NCBI GenBank assembly: GCA_035292885.1 | Contig: DATDPG010000047.1 | Location: 1-53,275 of the forward strand | Direction of reading: 5' to 3' | Source: Bdellovibrionota bacterium | GTDB taxonomy: Bacteria; Bdellovibrionota_G; JALEGL01; DATDPG01 | Length of the DNA stretch: 53,275 nt | Shown: positions 32,343 through 46,006 of the stretch, piece after piece | Position numbering within the stretch: position 1 is the first letter of the stretch | How the letters are laid out: the number at the start of each line of letters is the position of its first letter | The notes under the pieces: model-generated | Database searches by the model: none | Told to the model about the DNA's origin: nothing | Seen by the model: the letters and a program-made list of their open reading frames with translations, nothing else | Program-made: the position numbers and the translations under genes

Positions 32343-32546
32343 ACGGGCGAAGGCGGGAACCGGTCTCATAAATACGTTCGTTGCGAGACCGTCAGGATGC
32401 GAGCGGGCTTCGCAACCGCAGGGCCGAGACGCCGAGGCGTACGTAGAACGTACGTCGCAGGCGGATCGGACCGAGGACGCGAAGCCAGCGATGCAAACTG
32501 ACGGTCGGAGCAGAAGGTATTTATGAGACCGGTTCAAAACGCCCGT
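32343..32546. repeat. Long fold-back palindrome overlapping the PBP start
   Basis: A perfect 19-nt inverted repeat, GAACCGGTCTCATAAATAC at 32357-32375 and its complement at 32517-32535, encloses an imperfect palindrome whose inner arms also match (GACCGTCAG near 32386 with its complement near 32504; GGCTTCGC with GCGAAGCC) and whose centre is CGTACGTAGAACGTACG near 32446. ACGGGCG/CGCCCGT pair outside the main arms. This looks like a non-autonomous MITE or REP-like element. The right arm contains the ATG and first codons of the PBP gene. Confidence 0.8.
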
Positions 32547-34790
32547 CGCCTGATGGTTCGGATCGCCATCGCGACGACGGTGGTGATCTTCTTGTATGCG
32601 TTGTACGCCGCACATCTCGTCTCCGCGAAGATGAGCGGCGCGCGCTGGAAGCTCCCCTCGCGCGTGTATGCCTCTCCATGGATTCTATATCCCGGATCGC
32701 CGCTGATTGAAGCCGACCTTAAAGATTATTTTCGTCGTCTGGGGTATGCCCGGACCGAGCGCAAACCCGTAGCGGTCGGGCAATGGAAGAAATCGAGTTG
32801 GTCGATTGAAATTGGCGTTCGCGCATTTCGCGACGCGGTCGGCGAGCATCCAGCCCAGACCCTTGAAATCGATCTGACCGGTGAAACCATCCGCTCCCTT
32901 CAACGAAAAGAAAGCGACGGCCGATCGGAAGAGATTTTTACGTTCACGTTAGAGCCGGAGCCGGTGGGGGAAATTTTCGGCGCGCAGCGGGAGCAGCGGA
33001 CGGTCGTCCGGCTCAACGATCTTCCCTCCACGATGCGCGAAGCCATTCTCCTGATGGAGGACCGGAAATTTTACGAACATCACGGAATCAGTTTTCGCGG
33101 CATCGCGCGGGCGGCGTGGTCGAATCTCCAGGGCGGGAAAGTCACGCAGGGGGGAAGTACGCTCACTCAACAGCTGATGAAGAATTTCTTTCTCTCCCCG
33201 GAGCGCTCGCTCTGGCGGAAAATCCGGGAGGCTATCTTTACGGTTGTCGTTGAAATCCTCTACTCAAAAGACGAAATATTCGAGGCGTACGTGAACGAAA
33301 TTTACCTCGGTCAGCGGGGCGCGACGTCGATTCATGGGTATGGTGAGGCGTCGCGTTTTTATTTCTCGAAGCAGGTCGCGTACCTGACGCTGGGAGAGCA
33401 AGCTCTTCTCGTCGGGCTCGCCAGTTCTCCCGGATTGTATTCACCCTACACGAAGCCCGGTGCCGCGAGAGAACGACGCGCCCTCGTTCTTCGCGCTCTG
33501 TTCGAGAACGGAAAAATTTCGAAGGATTTGTTCGCGGAGGCCGATCGCGAGCCGATCGAGCCTCGCGGGAAGGCCGGAGACGAACGCCGGGCGCCTTATT
33601 TTATGGACTACGTCAAAAACGAGATCGGCGAGCGATACAGTTCGGCGCAGCTGGCGGAGGAGGGCTATGAGATCTACACGACGCTCGACCCGACGTTTCA
33701 AGCGAGTGCGGAGAAGGCTGTGTCGGAGGGTTTGGCTGCTGTGCAGGCACAAGGAAAAAGGAAGAAGCGAAAGGATGTTCCTCCGCTCGGGGACAAACCT
33801 CTTCAAGCGGCATTGATCGCGCTTCATCCCCAGACGGGCGCGATTAAAGCGATGATCGGCGGTCGGTCGTACGAACAGACCCAGTTTAACCGGGCCGTGC
33901 AATCGAACCGCCAACCCGGCTCGGCGGTCAAGCCGTTCGTGGCGGCAACCGCTCTGATGCCCGACGAGGGAGGGGAGGTGCCAAAAGCGACGGCAACGAC
34001 GATTCTTGATGACCGGCCGGCGACTTTTTCGTTTTCGGGTAAAGAGTGGTCGCCTCGAAATTACGAAGATGTCTATGCGGGAAGCACGACGCTGCGCGGA
34101 GCGATCGAGCGATCGCTGAATGTTGCGACGATCAATTTAGCGGCCGGCGTGGGCCTGGAACGTGTAGCGCAGTTTTTTCAGAAGGTTGGGTTTCCAAAAG
34201 TCGCGGCGGTTCCGTCGATCGTTCTCGGCACGATGGAAGTGACGCCGCTTCAGCTCGCCCGGGCGTACACGGTATTCGCCAACGCCGGCCTGCGCAGCGA
34301 CCCGCAATCCGTGACGGCGGTCGTAGCACAAGACGGCGCGCGGCTTACGCAACGATCGATGGAGGTTGAGCGCGTGCTTCCGCTTCAGATCGCATATCTC
34401 GTGACAAACGTCCTCCGAGGCGTGATCGACCGAGGCACAGGATACGGAGCGAGGCTTGCCGGTCTGACCGGAGACTTGGCGGGAAAAACCGGCACGACGG
34501 ACGATTACAAAGACAGTTGGTTCATCGGTTATTCTCCTTCGCTCCTTGCGGTTGTGTGGGTGGGACTCGACGATGGCACACCGACCGGGCTGACCGGGGC
34601 TTCCGGAGCCCTCCCCATTTGGATCCGATTCATGAAAGAGGCTCTACGCCGGTTGCCAAGGGAACCGTTTCTTATTCCGCCGGATATCGAATGGTTTACC
34701 GTCGACCGAATGAAAGGGTGTGTCGGTGGGTCGGGGGAGAGTTTGAAAGAAGCGTTTTTGAAGGGTACACAGCCCCCACGATGCAAGTGA
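32523..34790 (+). CDS. Bifunctional class A penicillin-binding protein (PBP1B type)
   Basis: A 755-residue peptidoglycan synthase. One N-terminal membrane anchor (VRIAIATTVVIFLYALYAA), a UB2H-like region at about 45-150 (SRVYASPWILYPGSPL), then GT51 glycosyltransferase with catalytic Glu 179 in LLMEDRKFYEHHG and GGSTLTQQLMKN. The transpeptidase follows: SxxK in QPGSAVKPF near 465, SLN in ERSLNVAT, and KTGTTDDYK near 655. ATG 32523 has GAAGG upstream; both lie inside the right arm of the palindrome. Its last ten codons lie in the next inverted repeat. Confidence 0.94.
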   Translation: MRPVQNARRLMVRIAIATTVVIFLYALYAAHLVSAKMSGARWKLPSRVYASPWILYPGSPLIEADLKDYFRRLGYARTERKPVAVGQWKKSSWSIEIGVRAFRDAVGEHPAQTLEIDLTGETIRSLQRKESDGRSEEIFTFTLEPEPVGEIFGAQREQRTVVRLNDLPSTMREAILLMEDRKFYEHHGISFRGIARAAWSNLQGGKVTQGGSTLTQQLMKNFFLSPERSLWRKIREAIFTVVVEILYSKDEIFEAYVNEIYLGQRGATSIHGYGEASRFYFSKQVAYLTLGEQALLVGLASSPGLYSPYTKPGAARERRALVLRALFENGKISKDLFAEADREPIEPRGKAGDERRAPYFMDYVKNEIGERYSSAQLAEEGYEIYTTLDPTFQASAEKAVSEGLAAVQAQGKRKKRKDVPPLGDKPLQAALIALHPQTGAIKAMIGGRSYEQTQFNRAVQSNRQPGSAVKPFVAATALMPDEGGEVPKATATTILDDRPATFSFSGKEWSPRNYEDVYAGSTTLRGAIERSLNVATINLAAGVGLERVAQFFQKVGFPKVAAVPSIVLGTMEVTPLQLARAYTVFANAGLRSDPQSVTAVVAQDGARLTQRSMEVERVLPLQIAYLVTNVLRGVIDRGTGYGARLAGLTGDLAGKTGTTDDYKDSWFIGYSPSLLAVVWVGLDDGTPTGLTGASGALPIWIRFMKEALRRLPREPFLIPPDIEWFTVDRMKGCVGGSGESLKEAFLKGTQPPRCK

Positions 34791-34948
34791 GAATGTTTCG
34801 AAAAAATGAAGTTGGGCTCCGGTCTCGATGGAAGCTCCCAAGGCCATGCTCGTTCCTGCGCGTGGCCTCGGGGATCTCCATCTCGCCACCCAACTTCATT
34901 CTTTTGTGGAGTTCCCGTCTTTGCATCGTGGGGCTGTGCACAACCCTT
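34761..34948. repeat. 188-bp inverted duplication between PBP and TPR lipoprotein genes
   Basis: Left arm 34761-34815 and right arm 34889-34948 are reverse-complement copies with small gaps. Matching blocks are AAGGGT, CACAGCCCC(C)ACGATGCAA at the outside and AATGAAGTTGGG/CCCAACTTCATT inside, with weaker pairing (AGGCCATGC/GCGTGGCCT) near the centre. The left arm encodes the last residues of the PBP and its stop; the right arm encodes the signal peptide of the next lipoprotein. The sequence could fold into a long hairpin. It is not visibly related to the palindrome at 32343. Confidence 0.75.
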
Positions 34949-35404
34949 CTCTTAGTTGGGGGTTGTGTCAAAACCGGGCCGCAGGTGGAGCCGACGGCGG
35001 TTCCGATTGGGGAGATGGCGGAGCACGAAAGCGACCCCCGCCGGGCGGCGTCGATGCGTGTGGTGGAGGAAGGGAGGAAAGAATTGACCAAGAACCTCTA
35101 CGAACGCGCCGCCTATCATTTTTCGCGCGCGGTTGAAATCGACAGCTCGAATCCGTTTGCGTACTTCTACCTCGGAGTCACCCGGTTTCGCTCCGGCCAA
35201 TTCAATCAGGCGGCCAATCTTTTTGGGCGGTCGTCCGATCTCTTCGATCTGATGAACAATTGGCGGGCGGAGGCGCTAGCTTATCGAGGCGAATCCTTGG
35301 AGAAAACGGGAAAGATCCAGGAGGCGCAAAAGGCTTTCGCGCTGGCGCTGGAGGCCGATGCGTCGAACGCCCGAGCACAAGAAGGCCATGCTCGCCTAAA
35401 TTGA
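34904..35404 (+). CDS. TPR-repeat lipoprotein
   Basis: About 166 residues: a lipoprotein signal ending LCTTLLLVGGC, then three TPR-like units (RRAASMRVVEEGRKELTKNLYERAAYHFSRAVEID, NPFAYFYLGVTRFRSGQFNQAANLFGRS, WRAEALAYRGESLEKTGKIQEAQKAFALALEAD). The start is unclear because the usual upstream region is taken up by the inverted duplication: TTG 34904 gives a sensible signal peptide, GTG 34928 a very short one, and ATG 34782 an over-long one. Probably an outer-membrane-anchored scaffold; partners are unknown. Confidence 0.68.
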   Translation: MWSSRLCIVGLCTTLLLVGGCVKTGPQVEPTAVPIGEMAEHESDPRRAASMRVVEEGRKELTKNLYERAAYHFSRAVEIDSSNPFAYFYLGVTRFRSGQFNQAANLFGRSSDLFDLMNNWRAEALAYRGESLEKTGKIQEAQKAFALALEADASNARAQEGHARLN

Positions 35405-39464: not shown

Positions 39465-39547
39465 GCCGCCGTGGTGGAATGGCAGACACGCAAGGCTTAG
39501 GACCTTGTGCGCGTATGCGTGTGGGGGTTCAAATCCCTCCGGCGGCA
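39465..39547 (+). tRNA. tRNA-Leu (anticodon UAG)
   Basis: An 83-nt class II tRNA. Acceptor stem GCCGCCG (39465-39471) pairs with CGGCGGC (39540-39546); the anticodon stem CAAGG/CCTTG encloses loop CTTAGGA with anticodon TAG; there is a long variable arm (GTGCGCGTATGCGTG region) and the T-loop GTTCAAAT. No CCA is encoded: the discriminator A is followed by CTCC. The 3' end is the integration site of the element that follows; a second copy of this end at 49665-49682 does carry CCA. Confidence 0.95.
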
Positions 39548-39548
39548 C
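39534..39548 (+). other. attL core (3' end of tRNA-Leu)
   Basis: TCCCTCCGGCGGCAC, the T-stem/acceptor end of the tRNA, is repeated exactly at 49665-49679. Sequence right of this copy (TCCTTTTG) belongs to the element. Confidence 0.8.
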
Positions 39549-39597
39549 TCCTTTTGATCTATCCTCTCGAAATCATTTCTAACACACCTTAGAAGAT

Positions 39598-40118
39598 CCC
39601 CGGGCGTAAGCCCGGGGGTGAATCGGGCTCCCAAGTCTTCTTTTTTCCGGTACAGCAGGGGGCATGGAACTAAGAAGACAAGCCCACTGTGTGTATCGCT
39701 GCATGTATCACCTGGTTTGGATTCCTCGGTATCGCTATTCGATGCTGGTGGACGGAGTTTCGCAGTATCTCCTGATCAAGTTGGATGAAGTGAGGAAGTA
39801 CCATCCGGAGATCGAGTACATCGAGCGAAATATCCAACCGGACCACGTGCACATCGTAGTAAGCTTCCCGCCAAAGTACAGCATCGCAAGCGTAGTACGG
39901 ATTATGAAAAGCAATACGGGACGAGCGTTGAGGGAGAAGTTCGAGTTTATTCGGGAGCGATATTACGGGCGAGGCGGGATGTGGTCGGTTGGATATTTTG
40001 CGAGCACAGTGGGCTTGGATGAGGACATGATCAAACGGTACGTCCGATACCAGGAAAAAGAAGACTTGGGACAAGCGAAGCTTGCATTCCCAAGAGGCCC
40101 ACGGGCGTAAGCCCGTGG
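39598..40118 (+). mobile_element. IS200/IS605-type insertion sequence with end hairpins
   Basis: A tnpA gene flanked by two perfect 8-bp-stem hairpins with the same GTAA loop: CCCCGGGC-GTAA-GCCCGGGG at 39598-39617 and CCACGGGC-GTAA-GCCCGTGG at 40099-40118. Subterminal hairpins recognised by the single-strand transposase are the hallmark of this family. There is no TnpB. The true ends extend slightly beyond the hairpins and cannot be fixed from sequence alone. It sits between the att core and the arm-type repeats. Confidence 0.8.
39664..40110 (+). CDS. tnpA: IS200/IS605-family transposase TnpA (REP-associated-like Y1 HUH)
   Basis: A 148-residue Y1 single-strand transposase. The HUH motif is in IQPDHVHIVVSFPP (HxH) and the catalytic Tyr in the C-terminal helix DEDMIKRYVRYQEK. 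N-terminal CVYRCMYHLVWIPRYRY is the family signature. The last codons and TAA stop lie inside the right-end hairpin, with the stop in its loop. It appears intact. Confidence 0.93.
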   Translation: MELRRQAHCVYRCMYHLVWIPRYRYSMLVDGVSQYLLIKLDEVRKYHPEIEYIERNIQPDHVHIVVSFPPKYSIASVVRIMKSNTGRALREKFEFIRERYYGRGGMWSVGYFASTVGLDEDMIKRYVRYQEKEDLGQAKLAFPRGPRA

Positions 40119-40149
40119 ATATCTAGGTTTTCCCAACGTAGGGTCATTG

Positions 40150-40167
40150 GGTCAACAAAAGTCAACA
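40150..40167 (+). repeat. Integrase arm-type repeat pair, left outer
   Basis: GGTCAACA at 40150-40157 and AGTCAACA at 40160-40167, followed by GGTC. The same motif pairs recur at 40211 and 49530. Confidence 0.6.
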
Positions 40168-40210
40168 GGTCTGCATTTTCTTTTCGTGAAAATCCGTTGG
40201 CTGACGTTTG

Positions 40211-40229
40211 GGTCAACACCGGGTCAACA
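40211..40229 (+). repeat. Integrase arm-type repeat pair, left inner
   Basis: GGTCAACA at 40211-40218 and 40222-40229, an 11-bp repeat distance (one helical turn). The whole 19-nt block is identical to the one at 49530-49548. It lies just downstream of the integrase stop codon. Confidence 0.65.
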
Positions 40230-40241
40230 CACAAAATGCGA

Positions 40242-41525
40242 TTAAACTACTGACCGTTGTTTGATCGAAATGACTTTCGATAAAGATGGACTCGTCGAAC
40301 TTCCGTCGCCGTGCTTTGCATGACCAAGTGTAAAGTTGATCATCGCTTTTCGCTGCGTTCGTTCGGCCACCTTTGCGTAATGCTGTGTGACGCGAAGATC
40401 TTGATGCCCAAGCGCGGCCTGGGCGGCGCGAATGTCATTGGTCTGCTCCGAAAAAATCGTTGCAAACGTATGACGAAGCACGTGTGTCGAGCGGATCGGA
40501 AGATCACAGACTCGAAACGCTTTTTTAAACGCGTTTTGAATCGCTGGGTATCTCAAGAGCTCTCCGTCTCGATGAAAGACGTACGGCCCCTTTGATCCCT
40601 TCTCGCGCCATTCCTGAAGAAGTTCGACCAGTCGCTCAGGAATAACCACGACCCGATCGCGGCCCGTTTTCGTACTTTCACGGATCGCTGGCTCCTTCGT
40701 TCGAAAGTGCCAAAAACAGACCCGCTTGATTTCCACGGTTCGGCGTTCCAGATCGACACATTCCCAGCGTAGCCCGCAGGCCTCGCCGATCCGCGCGCCA
40801 CATAACGCCTCAAAAGACGCCAAGTAGTAATAGACGGGCGTGTGTCGTTCTTTCAGACGATCGAGAAATCTCTCCAGATCCTCAACGGATAGCGAGAGAT
40901 CCGGCCTCCCCGGTTTTGGCTTGAAGAAACAGTCTTCACTGTGTCTTTTGAGAACCGGCGGCTGGTAACGCGGATTTTTGTATTCTCGGTACCAGTTCAA
41001 AATACCTCGAAGCGCCTTGAGTTCTCGGAAGTAGGACACTCGCGTCGATTTTTTCGGATACGAGGGATCGATCAGGATTTGCAACCACCGATCGATATCA
41101 AATGCCGAAAGTTCCTCTACCGGTATGTTCAAGATGGGTTGAAAATGAATCAACTCCTGAACATACTTCTCCCAGGTATTGATCGCGAAACGGGGTTTTG
41201 ACCAGTCTCGCCAATCTTCTACCAGAGCTGCAAGGGTGTACGTTGAGGGTTTCACCCGAATCTCCGTAGGATCTGGATTTGCTTCCGTTCGCCAAGCGCG
41301 TGCGTTTTCCAAATTCTCAAACGTACGCGCCTGTTGAACGAGCTTTCCGCCTACGCGAACTCTCCGGATAGCCCGATACGGCTTTGCCGGGCGACCTCCT
41401 CGCGAGACCACCTCCACATATTTTCCTCTCTCTTCCTGCCAGACGTGAACTTTGAAAATGCCGGGATATCCCCGCATCGTCATCAGTTTCCGTCGCGGAC
41501 GTTGTTTCGCTTCTTGTTTATCCAT
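40242..41525 (-). CDS. Tyrosine recombinase / site-specific integrase
   Basis: About 427 residues. An N-terminal arm-binding region, a SAM-like core-binding domain (TLAALVEDWRDWSKPRFAINTWEKYVQEL), and the catalytic domain with Arg in CGARIGEACGLRW, HxxR in STHVLRHTFATIF, the LGHQDLRV box and nucleophile Tyr in TQHYAKVAE. ATG 41525 has AGGAG 8 nt upstream. It reads toward the tRNA, as expected for the enzyme that catalysed insertion there. The 5' end overlaps the HTH gene by 8 nt, so int and the HTH protein are co-expressed. Confidence 0.93.
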   Translation of the reverse strand: MDKQEAKQRPRRKLMTMRGYPGIFKVHVWQEERGKYVEVVSRGGRPAKPYRAIRRVRVGGKLVQQARTFENLENARAWRTEANPDPTEIRVKPSTYTLAALVEDWRDWSKPRFAINTWEKYVQELIHFQPILNIPVEELSAFDIDRWLQILIDPSYPKKSTRVSYFRELKALRGILNWYREYKNPRYQPPVLKRHSEDCFFKPKPGRPDLSLSVEDLERFLDRLKERHTPVYYYLASFEALCGARIGEACGLRWECVDLERRTVEIKRVCFWHFRTKEPAIRESTKTGRDRVVVIPERLVELLQEWREKGSKGPYVFHRDGELLRYPAIQNAFKKAFRVCDLPIRSTHVLRHTFATIFSEQTNDIRAAQAALGHQDLRVTQHYAKVAERTQRKAMINFTLGHAKHGDGSSTSPSLSKVISIKQRSVV

Positions 41526-41850
41526 AAGGATGACTCCTTTCCGATAACCATCTGCGAAGGACGTCCGAGTGAAAGCGAACCATCCGGGGTGTCGGTCGGA
41601 CCGTTGGAATTCGGCCTTCCGACACCATATTTCGAATCGTTCGCTCGCTACATTGAAGTAGCTTGGCCACATCACTGACTGTGAGCAATCGACCTATTCC
41701 GTTTTCAAAGAACAACCCTCGGGAAGAACTGTAATCCCTCCGAGTTCTGAATGACGGCAGAATATCACTTTGAATCCCGATCGAATCATTTTTTTCATGA
41801 AATTTGGGATTTACCCAAACAGCGACAGGTTCTTCTCTAGAAGAAGTCAA
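41518..41850 (-). CDS. Excisionase-like helix-turn-helix protein
   Basis: A 110-residue protein; the C-terminal 55 residues are a MerR-like/HTH_17 DNA-binding domain (LLTVSDVAKLLQCSERTIRNMVSEGRIPTVRPTPRMVRFHSDVLRRWL). Small HTH_17 proteins next to integrases act as excisionases or as regulators of element mobility. The N-terminal half is unconserved. It overlaps the relaxase end by 14 nt and integrase start by 8 nt. Confidence 0.82.
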   Translation of the reverse strand: MTSSREEPVAVWVNPKFHEKNDSIGIQSDILPSFRTRRDYSSSRGLFFENGIGRLLTVSDVAKLLQCSERTIRNMVSEGRIPTVRPTPRMVRFHSDVLRRWLSERSHPYG

Positions 41851-44509: not shown

Positions 44510-46006
44510 ATGAATCCGAAAACCAAACCAGGTACGCGCACCTCGCGTGCCGCGATCGCCAACCAAGTAAATCTTCTCATGCGCGAGGGCGAAGGTTTAA
44601 CCGTGGAGTTCAAAGAACGGTACACGCCTCGGGTGGACGAAGATATTGTGGCATTTGCCAACGCCAAGGGAGGAACCATACTTCTCGGCGTCCGGGAGGA
44701 TGGCACCATCGCCGGCGAACGGTTGACCAACGACCTAAAGGCCAAAATCAACAGCCTGGCGCGGAACTTAAAGCCGACGATTCCTGTCGAGTTTTCCCAA
44801 GTCGGGAAAGTGGTGGCGATCTTCGTGTCGGAAGGATCGGATAAACCATACTCCTGTGGTTCAGGCTACTACCGAAGACTCGACGGTAACACACAGAAGA
44901 TGAGCCACGATGAGCTACGCATCATGTTTGCGGAGAACGAACCGCTCCCTTTCGAAGAAAGAACAGTCAAGGGGTTCACGCTGGAAGACATCTCCAATTC
45001 GAAAATACGCGCTTTTACAAGAGAAGCCGGCATACAAATCGGGCGCGCTGGAGTTCAGGATGTATTGCGCAGTCTTAACGTGGCGGATCAGTCCCGGATC
45101 AAAAACGCGGGGATCCTCTTTTTCGCCAAGGATGTATATCGGCATATCCATCAGTCCCAGATGACGCTAATCGCGTTCAAGGGAACGGATCGCATGCATA
45201 TTTATGATCGGCGCGACGTGCGTGACGATCTCCTCACGCAGTTCAACGAAGCGGTCGCATTTCTCCGCAAACATCTAAATGTGCGAAGCGAGATCCACGG
45301 TGTCAACCGTAAGGACATTTACGAAATTCCTCTTGAAGTATTGCGCGAAGCTGTTGTGAACGCGCTCATGCACCGCGACTACAGCATTACCGGTACGCAA
45401 ATAAGCGTCGAGGTCCACGACGATCGGGTCGAAATCGCAAACCCCGGCGATTTGCCGAAAGGTATGTCAATCCAGAACCTCGGCAAAGTTTCGATCCGGA
45501 GGAACGAACTGATCGCTGATCTCTTTTTCCGCATGCACAAAGTCGAACGTTTCGGCTTGGGCATTCAAAAAATGAAGGAAGCAATGCTCGCCGCGGGACT
45601 TCGCGAGCCCGTTTTTGAGCCGGGTGTATTTTTTCGGGCATCGTTCCAGCGATCGCCCGAATTGGCGTTAAAGAAACACCGCGAACAGTCCGTCAGGCGG
45701 TTCGGAGAAAAGTTCGGAGAAGGTTTCTCGCGGGAGCTAGAGTCGGAGCTAGGGTCACAGCTAGAGTCGGAGCTAGAGTCACTGGAGCTCCGTGTGCTGG
45801 CCGCCCTAGTTAAACACCCACTTGGCAAAGCATCACTGGCAATAGCTTTGGGTCAAAAACAGGCCTCAGGTCCTCTCCATCGAATAATTCGATCCTTGCT
45901 GGCAAGAAAACTTATTGAACGAAGTCTGCCCCAAAAGCCTGCGAGCCGATTACAGAAGTATCTGGTTACAAAGGCGGGGGAAAAATTACTACGGAGAAAG
46001 GAGTGA
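44510..46006 (+). CDS. Schlafen/AlbA-domain protein with HATPase-like C-terminus
   Basis: A 498-residue protein. Residues 20-145 form an AlbA_2/Schlafen domain (LTVEFKERYTPRVDEDIVAFANAKGGTILLGVREDG ... YYRRLDGNTQKMSHDEL). Residues 270-365 are the HATPase_c_4-like region seen with it (LEVLREAVVNALMHRDYSITGTQISVEVHDDRVEIANPGDLPKG). A short Glu/Leu/Ser repeat (ELESELGSQLESELESLE) links to a C-terminal winged helix. Often annotated as RecG-related or transcriptional regulators; several occur in mobile elements and some in defence. It starts 7 nt after the three-RHH gene, so both are probably co-transcribed. Confidence 0.85.
   Translation: MNPKTKPGTRTSRAAIANQVNLLMREGEGLTVEFKERYTPRVDEDIVAFANAKGGTILLGVREDGTIAGERLTNDLKAKINSLARNLKPTIPVEFSQVGKVVAIFVSEGSDKPYSCGSGYYRRLDGNTQKMSHDELRIMFAENEPLPFEERTVKGFTLEDISNSKIRAFTREAGIQIGRAGVQDVLRSLNVADQSRIKNAGILFFAKDVYRHIHQSQMTLIAFKGTDRMHIYDRRDVRDDLLTQFNEAVAFLRKHLNVRSEIHGVNRKDIYEIPLEVLREAVVNALMHRDYSITGTQISVEVHDDRVEIANPGDLPKGMSIQNLGKVSIRRNELIADLFFRMHKVERFGLGIQKMKEAMLAAGLREPVFEPGVFFRASFQRSPELALKKHREQSVRRFGEKFGEGFSRELESELGSQLESELESLELRVLAALVKHPLGKASLAIALGQKQASGPLHRIIRSLLARKLIERSLPQKPASRLQKYLVTKAGEKLLRRKE
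45733..45780 (+). repeat. In-frame 12-bp minisatellite
   Basis: Four tandem units close to GGAGCTAGAGTC at 45733, 45745, 45757 and 45769, encoding an ELES-type repeat in the linker before the winged helix. A further partial unit follows. Copy-number change would keep the frame. Confidence 0.8.

Follow-up and report, generated by a model that had tools for sequence, protein, structure and literature searches.

The window, that is, the whole stretch of 53,275 nt of a Bdellovibrionota genome that was analyzed, contains a UB2H-containing PBP1b gene followed by a TPR lipoprotein gene (32523-35404; Table 1). This gene order is conserved in G001 and apparently in G002, two genomes of the same taxonomic order. 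In Pseudomonas the TPR lipoprotein LpoP binds UB2H (PMC7267771). The pair in the window recalls such an arrangement, with the lipoprotein as a putative LpoP-like activator assigned by architecture only.

Table 1. Positions of the genes, start sites and repeat components around the PBP-lipoprotein junction
Feature	Position	Strand	Remark
Second, unrelated palindromic repeat (family B), 178 nt	32357..32535	.	Right end supplies first ATG of PBP ORF
PBP1b-type class A PBP (Transgly + UB2H + Transpeptidase)	32523..34790	+	
5' outer arm, PBP 3' coding end (GTQPPRCK), judged native copy	34760..34786	+	Arm alignment; PBP-end conservation
ATGCAAGTGA, lipoprotein ATG (34781) overlapping PBP stop TGA (34788-34790)	34781..34790	+	
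TPR lipoprotein ORF, LpoP-like by architecture	34781..35404	+	Open across whole element
5' inner arm, copy-specific	34801..34813	+	
Conserved core, 78 nt, GGGCTCCGGTCnCG...GCCACCC	34814..34891	+	Asymmetric internal loop (CTCC/A)
3' inner arm, copy-specific	34892..34904	+	
Alternative TTG start (WSSRLCIVGLCTTLLLVGGC)	34904..34906	+	3' of element; no Shine-Dalgarno seen
3' outer arm, inverted PBP-end copy	34921..34949	+	Encodes h-region of lipoprotein leader

The initial annotation had described the lipoprotein gene as lacking a standard start codon. This did not hold, as an ATG at 34781 overlaps the PBP stop codon (ATGCAAGTGA), and the same overlap was found at the orthologous junctions of G001 (ATGTCGGTAA) and G002 (ATGACTAA). 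From this ATG the lipoprotein frame runs through the element described below into RLCIVGLCTTLLLVGGC, giving 62 residues to the lipobox Cys compared with 18-21 in relatives. The leader of the G001 lipoprotein has 18 residues (MSVKSLTLMGFLFIIASC), and that of G002 reads MTKIKVQYAVFFIILFFITAC. Both the G001 and the G002 junctions are without the element, and no inverted repeat was found at that of G001.

DNA encoding the end of the PBP had also been said to reappear, reverse-complemented, in the signal peptide of the lipoprotein, and this was borne out. The inverted arms pair 34765-34786 with 34921-34941 and 34801-34816 with 34889-34904. By local alignment the outer arms cover 34760-34786 and 34921-34949 with one substitution, one 3-nt gap and one 1-nt gap. 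Their score of 33 is far above chance (mean 12.4, sd 2.6, for 20,000 segment pairs of the same geometry drawn from the window) and was reached in that test only by the junction locus and by the second palindrome at 32.36-32.54 kb. The 5' outer arm encodes the PBP residues ...KGTQPPRCK while the 3' outer arm encodes LCIVGLCTT, the hydrophobic stretch of the lipoprotein leader. As this end of the PBP is conserved among relatives (GTKPSKCR in G001) and in other PBPs, the 5' outer arm was taken to be the original and the 3' outer arm to be copied. A search for the outer arms elsewhere in the genome gave no significant second copy. The interval 34760-34949 folds as one long hairpin (-51.5 kcal/mol as DNA, versus -25.3 +/- 3.2 for shuffles; z -8.3), in which the mirrored block is discontinuous, the outer arms being followed by 13-15 unpaired nt on each side, then by the inner arms and the 78-nt core. 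The term inverted duplication is apt for the outermost arms (about 28 nt, duplicated locally) and not for most of the structure, which is a copy of a repeat dispersed in 20 copies. The palindrome at the other end of the PBP gene is unlike that at the junction, as had been claimed; no alignment between the two was seen, and a common origin was rejected, the shared CCGGTCTC being all that they have in common. Family B, to which this other palindrome belongs, has a fixed length of 178-179 nt with ends GAACCGGTCTCATAAAT and occurs at about 20 places in the genome, and several contigs end within its copies.

The dispersed element was located in the 3.1-Mb genome using the motif GGCTCCGGTC N(35-65) GCCACC, which gave 15 matches (0 for the reversed control pattern). 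Five divergent copies were added by covariance model and inspection, bringing these genome searches, on which the copy counts rest, to 20 copies plus fragments. Two subfamilies were distinguished, with different inner hairpins and the same asymmetric internal loop. The core measures 68-78 nt and has sharp borders (GGG...CCC); core plus inner arms come to 100-114 nt. One copy (L122:1511-1654) has an expanded inner hairpin, with a 144-nt core and two extra hairpins.

Related copies were found by the covariance model (E about 1e-9) in G004, which is the one further member of the phylum that was sampled from beyond the order. About ten copies of a palindromic element whose ends are conserved (GAACTCATTTCAT) occur there. 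G001-G003, which belong to the same order, gave no match to the model. An exact-pattern scan of 85k genomes returned 10 single matches scattered over unrelated genomes, mostly of high GC, which is about chance level, and none was credible. No match to the element was found in viral contigs, phages or plasmids, and an Rfam search of the window at the gathering score returned only a tRNA. The element is an unreported, lineage-specific palindromic repeat family.

Elsewhere in the window, a tRNA-Leu precedes an IS200-like Y1 transposase (39664-40110), itself flanked by hairpins, and a minus-strand tyrosine integrase (40242-41675); tRNA and integrase were identified by eye. The region 39465-41675 is a possible island at a tRNA. 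A tie between the element and this transposase was rejected, the transposase's own flanking hairpins being different. Short 12-nt tandem repeats (AGCTAGAGTCGG / AGCTAGGGTCAC) lie at 45735-45782.

Of 19 copies, 17 follow a gene on the same strand whose end lies 15-54 nt ahead of the core. Gene calls around the copies were ORF-based, and one of the 17 (L073) has a weak left-hand call, its right-hand gene being the likelier neighbor. About five of the 17 are placed between convergent genes and give no information on orientation; by count the remaining copies comprise about 12 after a gene in sense orientation and 2 in reverse. The G004 copies have no orientation bias relative to genes. Integron attC sites were considered since copies follow genes in one orientation, and were rejected on box order and invariant bases.

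Open reading frames run through the element in four copies, namely that of the window (L079), L084, L086 and L125. In L084 the element separates the ATG of a pseudopilin from its prepilin site (EG^FSFIEV), and orthologs of this protein have short leaders in G001 (GTG-KYTQTKG^FSLLEV) and G003 (MVTKFTTTGG^FSLLEV). The L125 copy lies in the leader of a second TPR lipoprotein, whose G002 ortholog has an ordinary short leader (MIVKSYRIVLLCLVAVVLNSC). In L086 the leader concerned belongs to a TolB-like lipoprotein, for whose junction an ortholog was sought and not found. L084 and L125 have no ATG, GTG or TTG from the element to the hydrophobic segment, and in L086 none precedes the h-region. Seventeen of 19 copies have a core free of stops in sense frames; since the copies are homologous, this supports translation weakly. 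Judging from the open frames, the lack of later starts and the short leaders of orthologs, translation through the element is likely, and the repeat of the window copy is probably read as part of the removable leader peptide of the lipoprotein. Alternatively, the lipoprotein of the window could start at TTG 34904, which would yield an excellent 21-residue lipoprotein leader and leave the element as an untranslated spacer. Such a start is doubtful, given that no Shine-Dalgarno sequence was seen, that two relatives (G001, G002) share the ATG that overlaps the PBP stop, and that L084 and L125 offer no such alternative.

The arms are specific to each copy yet self-complementary, and they enclose the conserved asymmetric core. 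Standard pairs made up 91.1% in the arms, versus 71.1% after shuffling and 33-45% after sliding, and two-sided changes were found at 12 of 12 arm pairs. An ungapped census of the arms counted 190 Watson-Crick, 4 G-U and 34 mismatched pairs. The cores of L074 and L075 are 99% identical (about 1 base in 72 differs) while their arms are 21% identical; near-identical cores in unrelated arms indicate that core and arms are modular. Copies with similar cores tend to have similar arms (Mantel r 0.27, p 0.006), arms differ less between copies than flanks do, and several copies have arms in common (e.g., GTAGCGTTAC). Taken together with L074 and L075, this indicates that arms partly travel with the core and are partly replaced en bloc. 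That pair is hard to account for by gradual compensatory drift alone; template switching, or cores exchanged between stems, can account for it. More than about 20 nt from the core, pairing is at background level in most copies, the only strong outliers being the window copy and L086. At L086 (G000 C177, about 17.0 kb) the upstream gene end QNEDGAWITKR is mirrored beyond the element, before the lipoprotein leader.

On balance, we consider it fairly probable, as a whole account, that a lineage-specific MITE/REP-like element came to the PBP1b-lipoprotein junction, is translated in the leader, and was later followed by template switching. A copy of the element would sit between the lipoprotein ATG and the hydrophobic core of the signal peptide, and would be translated in frame as about 40 extra residues to be removed by signal peptidase II. 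As the element lies in the cleaved leader, its cost to the mature protein would be small, and gene ends and cleavable leaders would be safe sites for it. The hairpin may later have provoked template switching in replication, whereby the PBP 3' end was copied, inverted, into the leader. The outer arms, which are specific to the window copy, are best explained by such switching, and the making and repairing of hairpin stems by template switching is described (PMC8794818, PMC8604942). We infer mobility of the element, translation through it, leader cleavage and template switching. Against this account, the unpaired nucleotides between outer and inner arms require a switch that skipped them; against mobility, no transposase was tied to the element and no target-site duplication was seen in flanks inspected by eye. 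The nearest relative compared belongs to a different family (PBP identity 53%), and the comparison included no empty site from a close relative.

A tentative variant is that of a mobile element whose constant hairpin-tip core moves between unrelated stems, or itself builds them, with leaders serving as an in-gene refuge. The core would either enter existing stems or template an inverted copy of its own 5' flank as a stem. It is somewhat unlikely that the core is a cassette inserting into the loops of pre-existing hairpins such as terminators, with arms that are older host DNA. Such a cassette would fit the sharp core borders, the copies at gene ends, the near-identity (94-99%) of cores set in arms that are self-complementary yet unrelated (L074/L075, L076/L086), and a G004 copy (L132) with matching core and different arms; it is opposed by the correlation of arms with core identity and by arms more alike than flanks, so that some arms travel with the core, and by the G001 junction, which has no inverted repeat.

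Still less likely is a cis-acting RNA element, such as a decorated intrinsic terminator or 3' UTR hairpin, in which pairing would be selected for 3'-end formation or attenuation and spread would be secondary. Copies lie shortly behind stop codons and for the most part share one orientation, arm pairing is strongly conserved, and many arms have a 5' A-run and a 3' T-run. About half of the copies have the arrangement of intrinsic terminators, with a T-run behind the stem shortly after a gene. However, several copies are without a T-run, and four lie inside coding leaders. The polarity is absent among the G004 relatives, Rfam gave no match, and G-U pairs are few (4/194 paired cells), whereas compensation at the RNA level is commonly thought to pass via G-U (PMC8794818). 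An assembly artefact is an unlikely source of the junction structure, and a foldback in assembly or amplification, or chance, has a negligible probability: the assembly is a single draft of 214 contigs, but twenty divergent copies, nearly all on different contigs, and relatives in another genome stand against foldback, mismatches and indels between the arms argue against a simple chimeric read or assembly foldback, and chance is excluded at the level tested with the outer-arm alignment.

The element resembles Rickettsia palindromic elements (RPEs), the RU-2 MITE and REPs in behavior, and each definition applies only in part. RPEs and the Wolbachia palindromic elements are lineage-specific hairpin repeats of about 100-150 nt that occur in frame in intact ORFs (PMC3767692, PMC2229807). 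Here too a palindromic repeat is dispersed in one lineage, and the four ORFs stay open through it, in leaders only. By contrast with RPEs, compared here by description, every in-ORF copy occupies the N-terminal leader of an exported protein, most copies lie at the ends of genes, and copy-specific arms surround a constant core. The Yersinia YPAL/RU-2 MITE is a 168-nt palindromic repeat with an open frame that forms part of a predicted signal peptide at YPO1552 (PMC2229807). RU-2 makes target-site duplications, none of which were seen by eye here, and itself supplies hydrophobic residues, whereas the present element precedes a native hydrophobic core. As for MITE terminal inverted repeats, the outer arms are copy-specific in this genome while the G004 relatives have the conserved ends. 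REPs (GTAG/CGTC-tagged, with RAYT transposases) are dispersed, mostly extragenic palindromes, some of them inside genes (PMC3733652). They are 20-40 nt long with a tetranucleotide tag, whereas this element is 70-110 nt long and without a constant tag. One RAYT-like transposase gene was seen (L099:280-993), between different, inverted repeats (GGGGTCAGAGAACTTTTT). In quasipalindrome template switching and in the coding palindromes of Nematomorpha mitochondria, inverted copies lie beside a hairpin and both arms may encode protein (PMC8794818, PMC8604942, PMC6649704); here, in contrast, a dispersed repeat lies between the arms, and these encode the ends of two neighboring genes that are read differently.

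A new bacterial palindromic repeat family is thereby added from a poorly sampled phylum. The core and arms of such repeats evolve separately, which bears on the origin and persistence of long perfect stems. The junction provides a clear case of the coding end of one gene copied, inverted, into the signal peptide of its neighbor, and removable leader peptides of exported proteins are suggested as tolerated landing sites for repeats.
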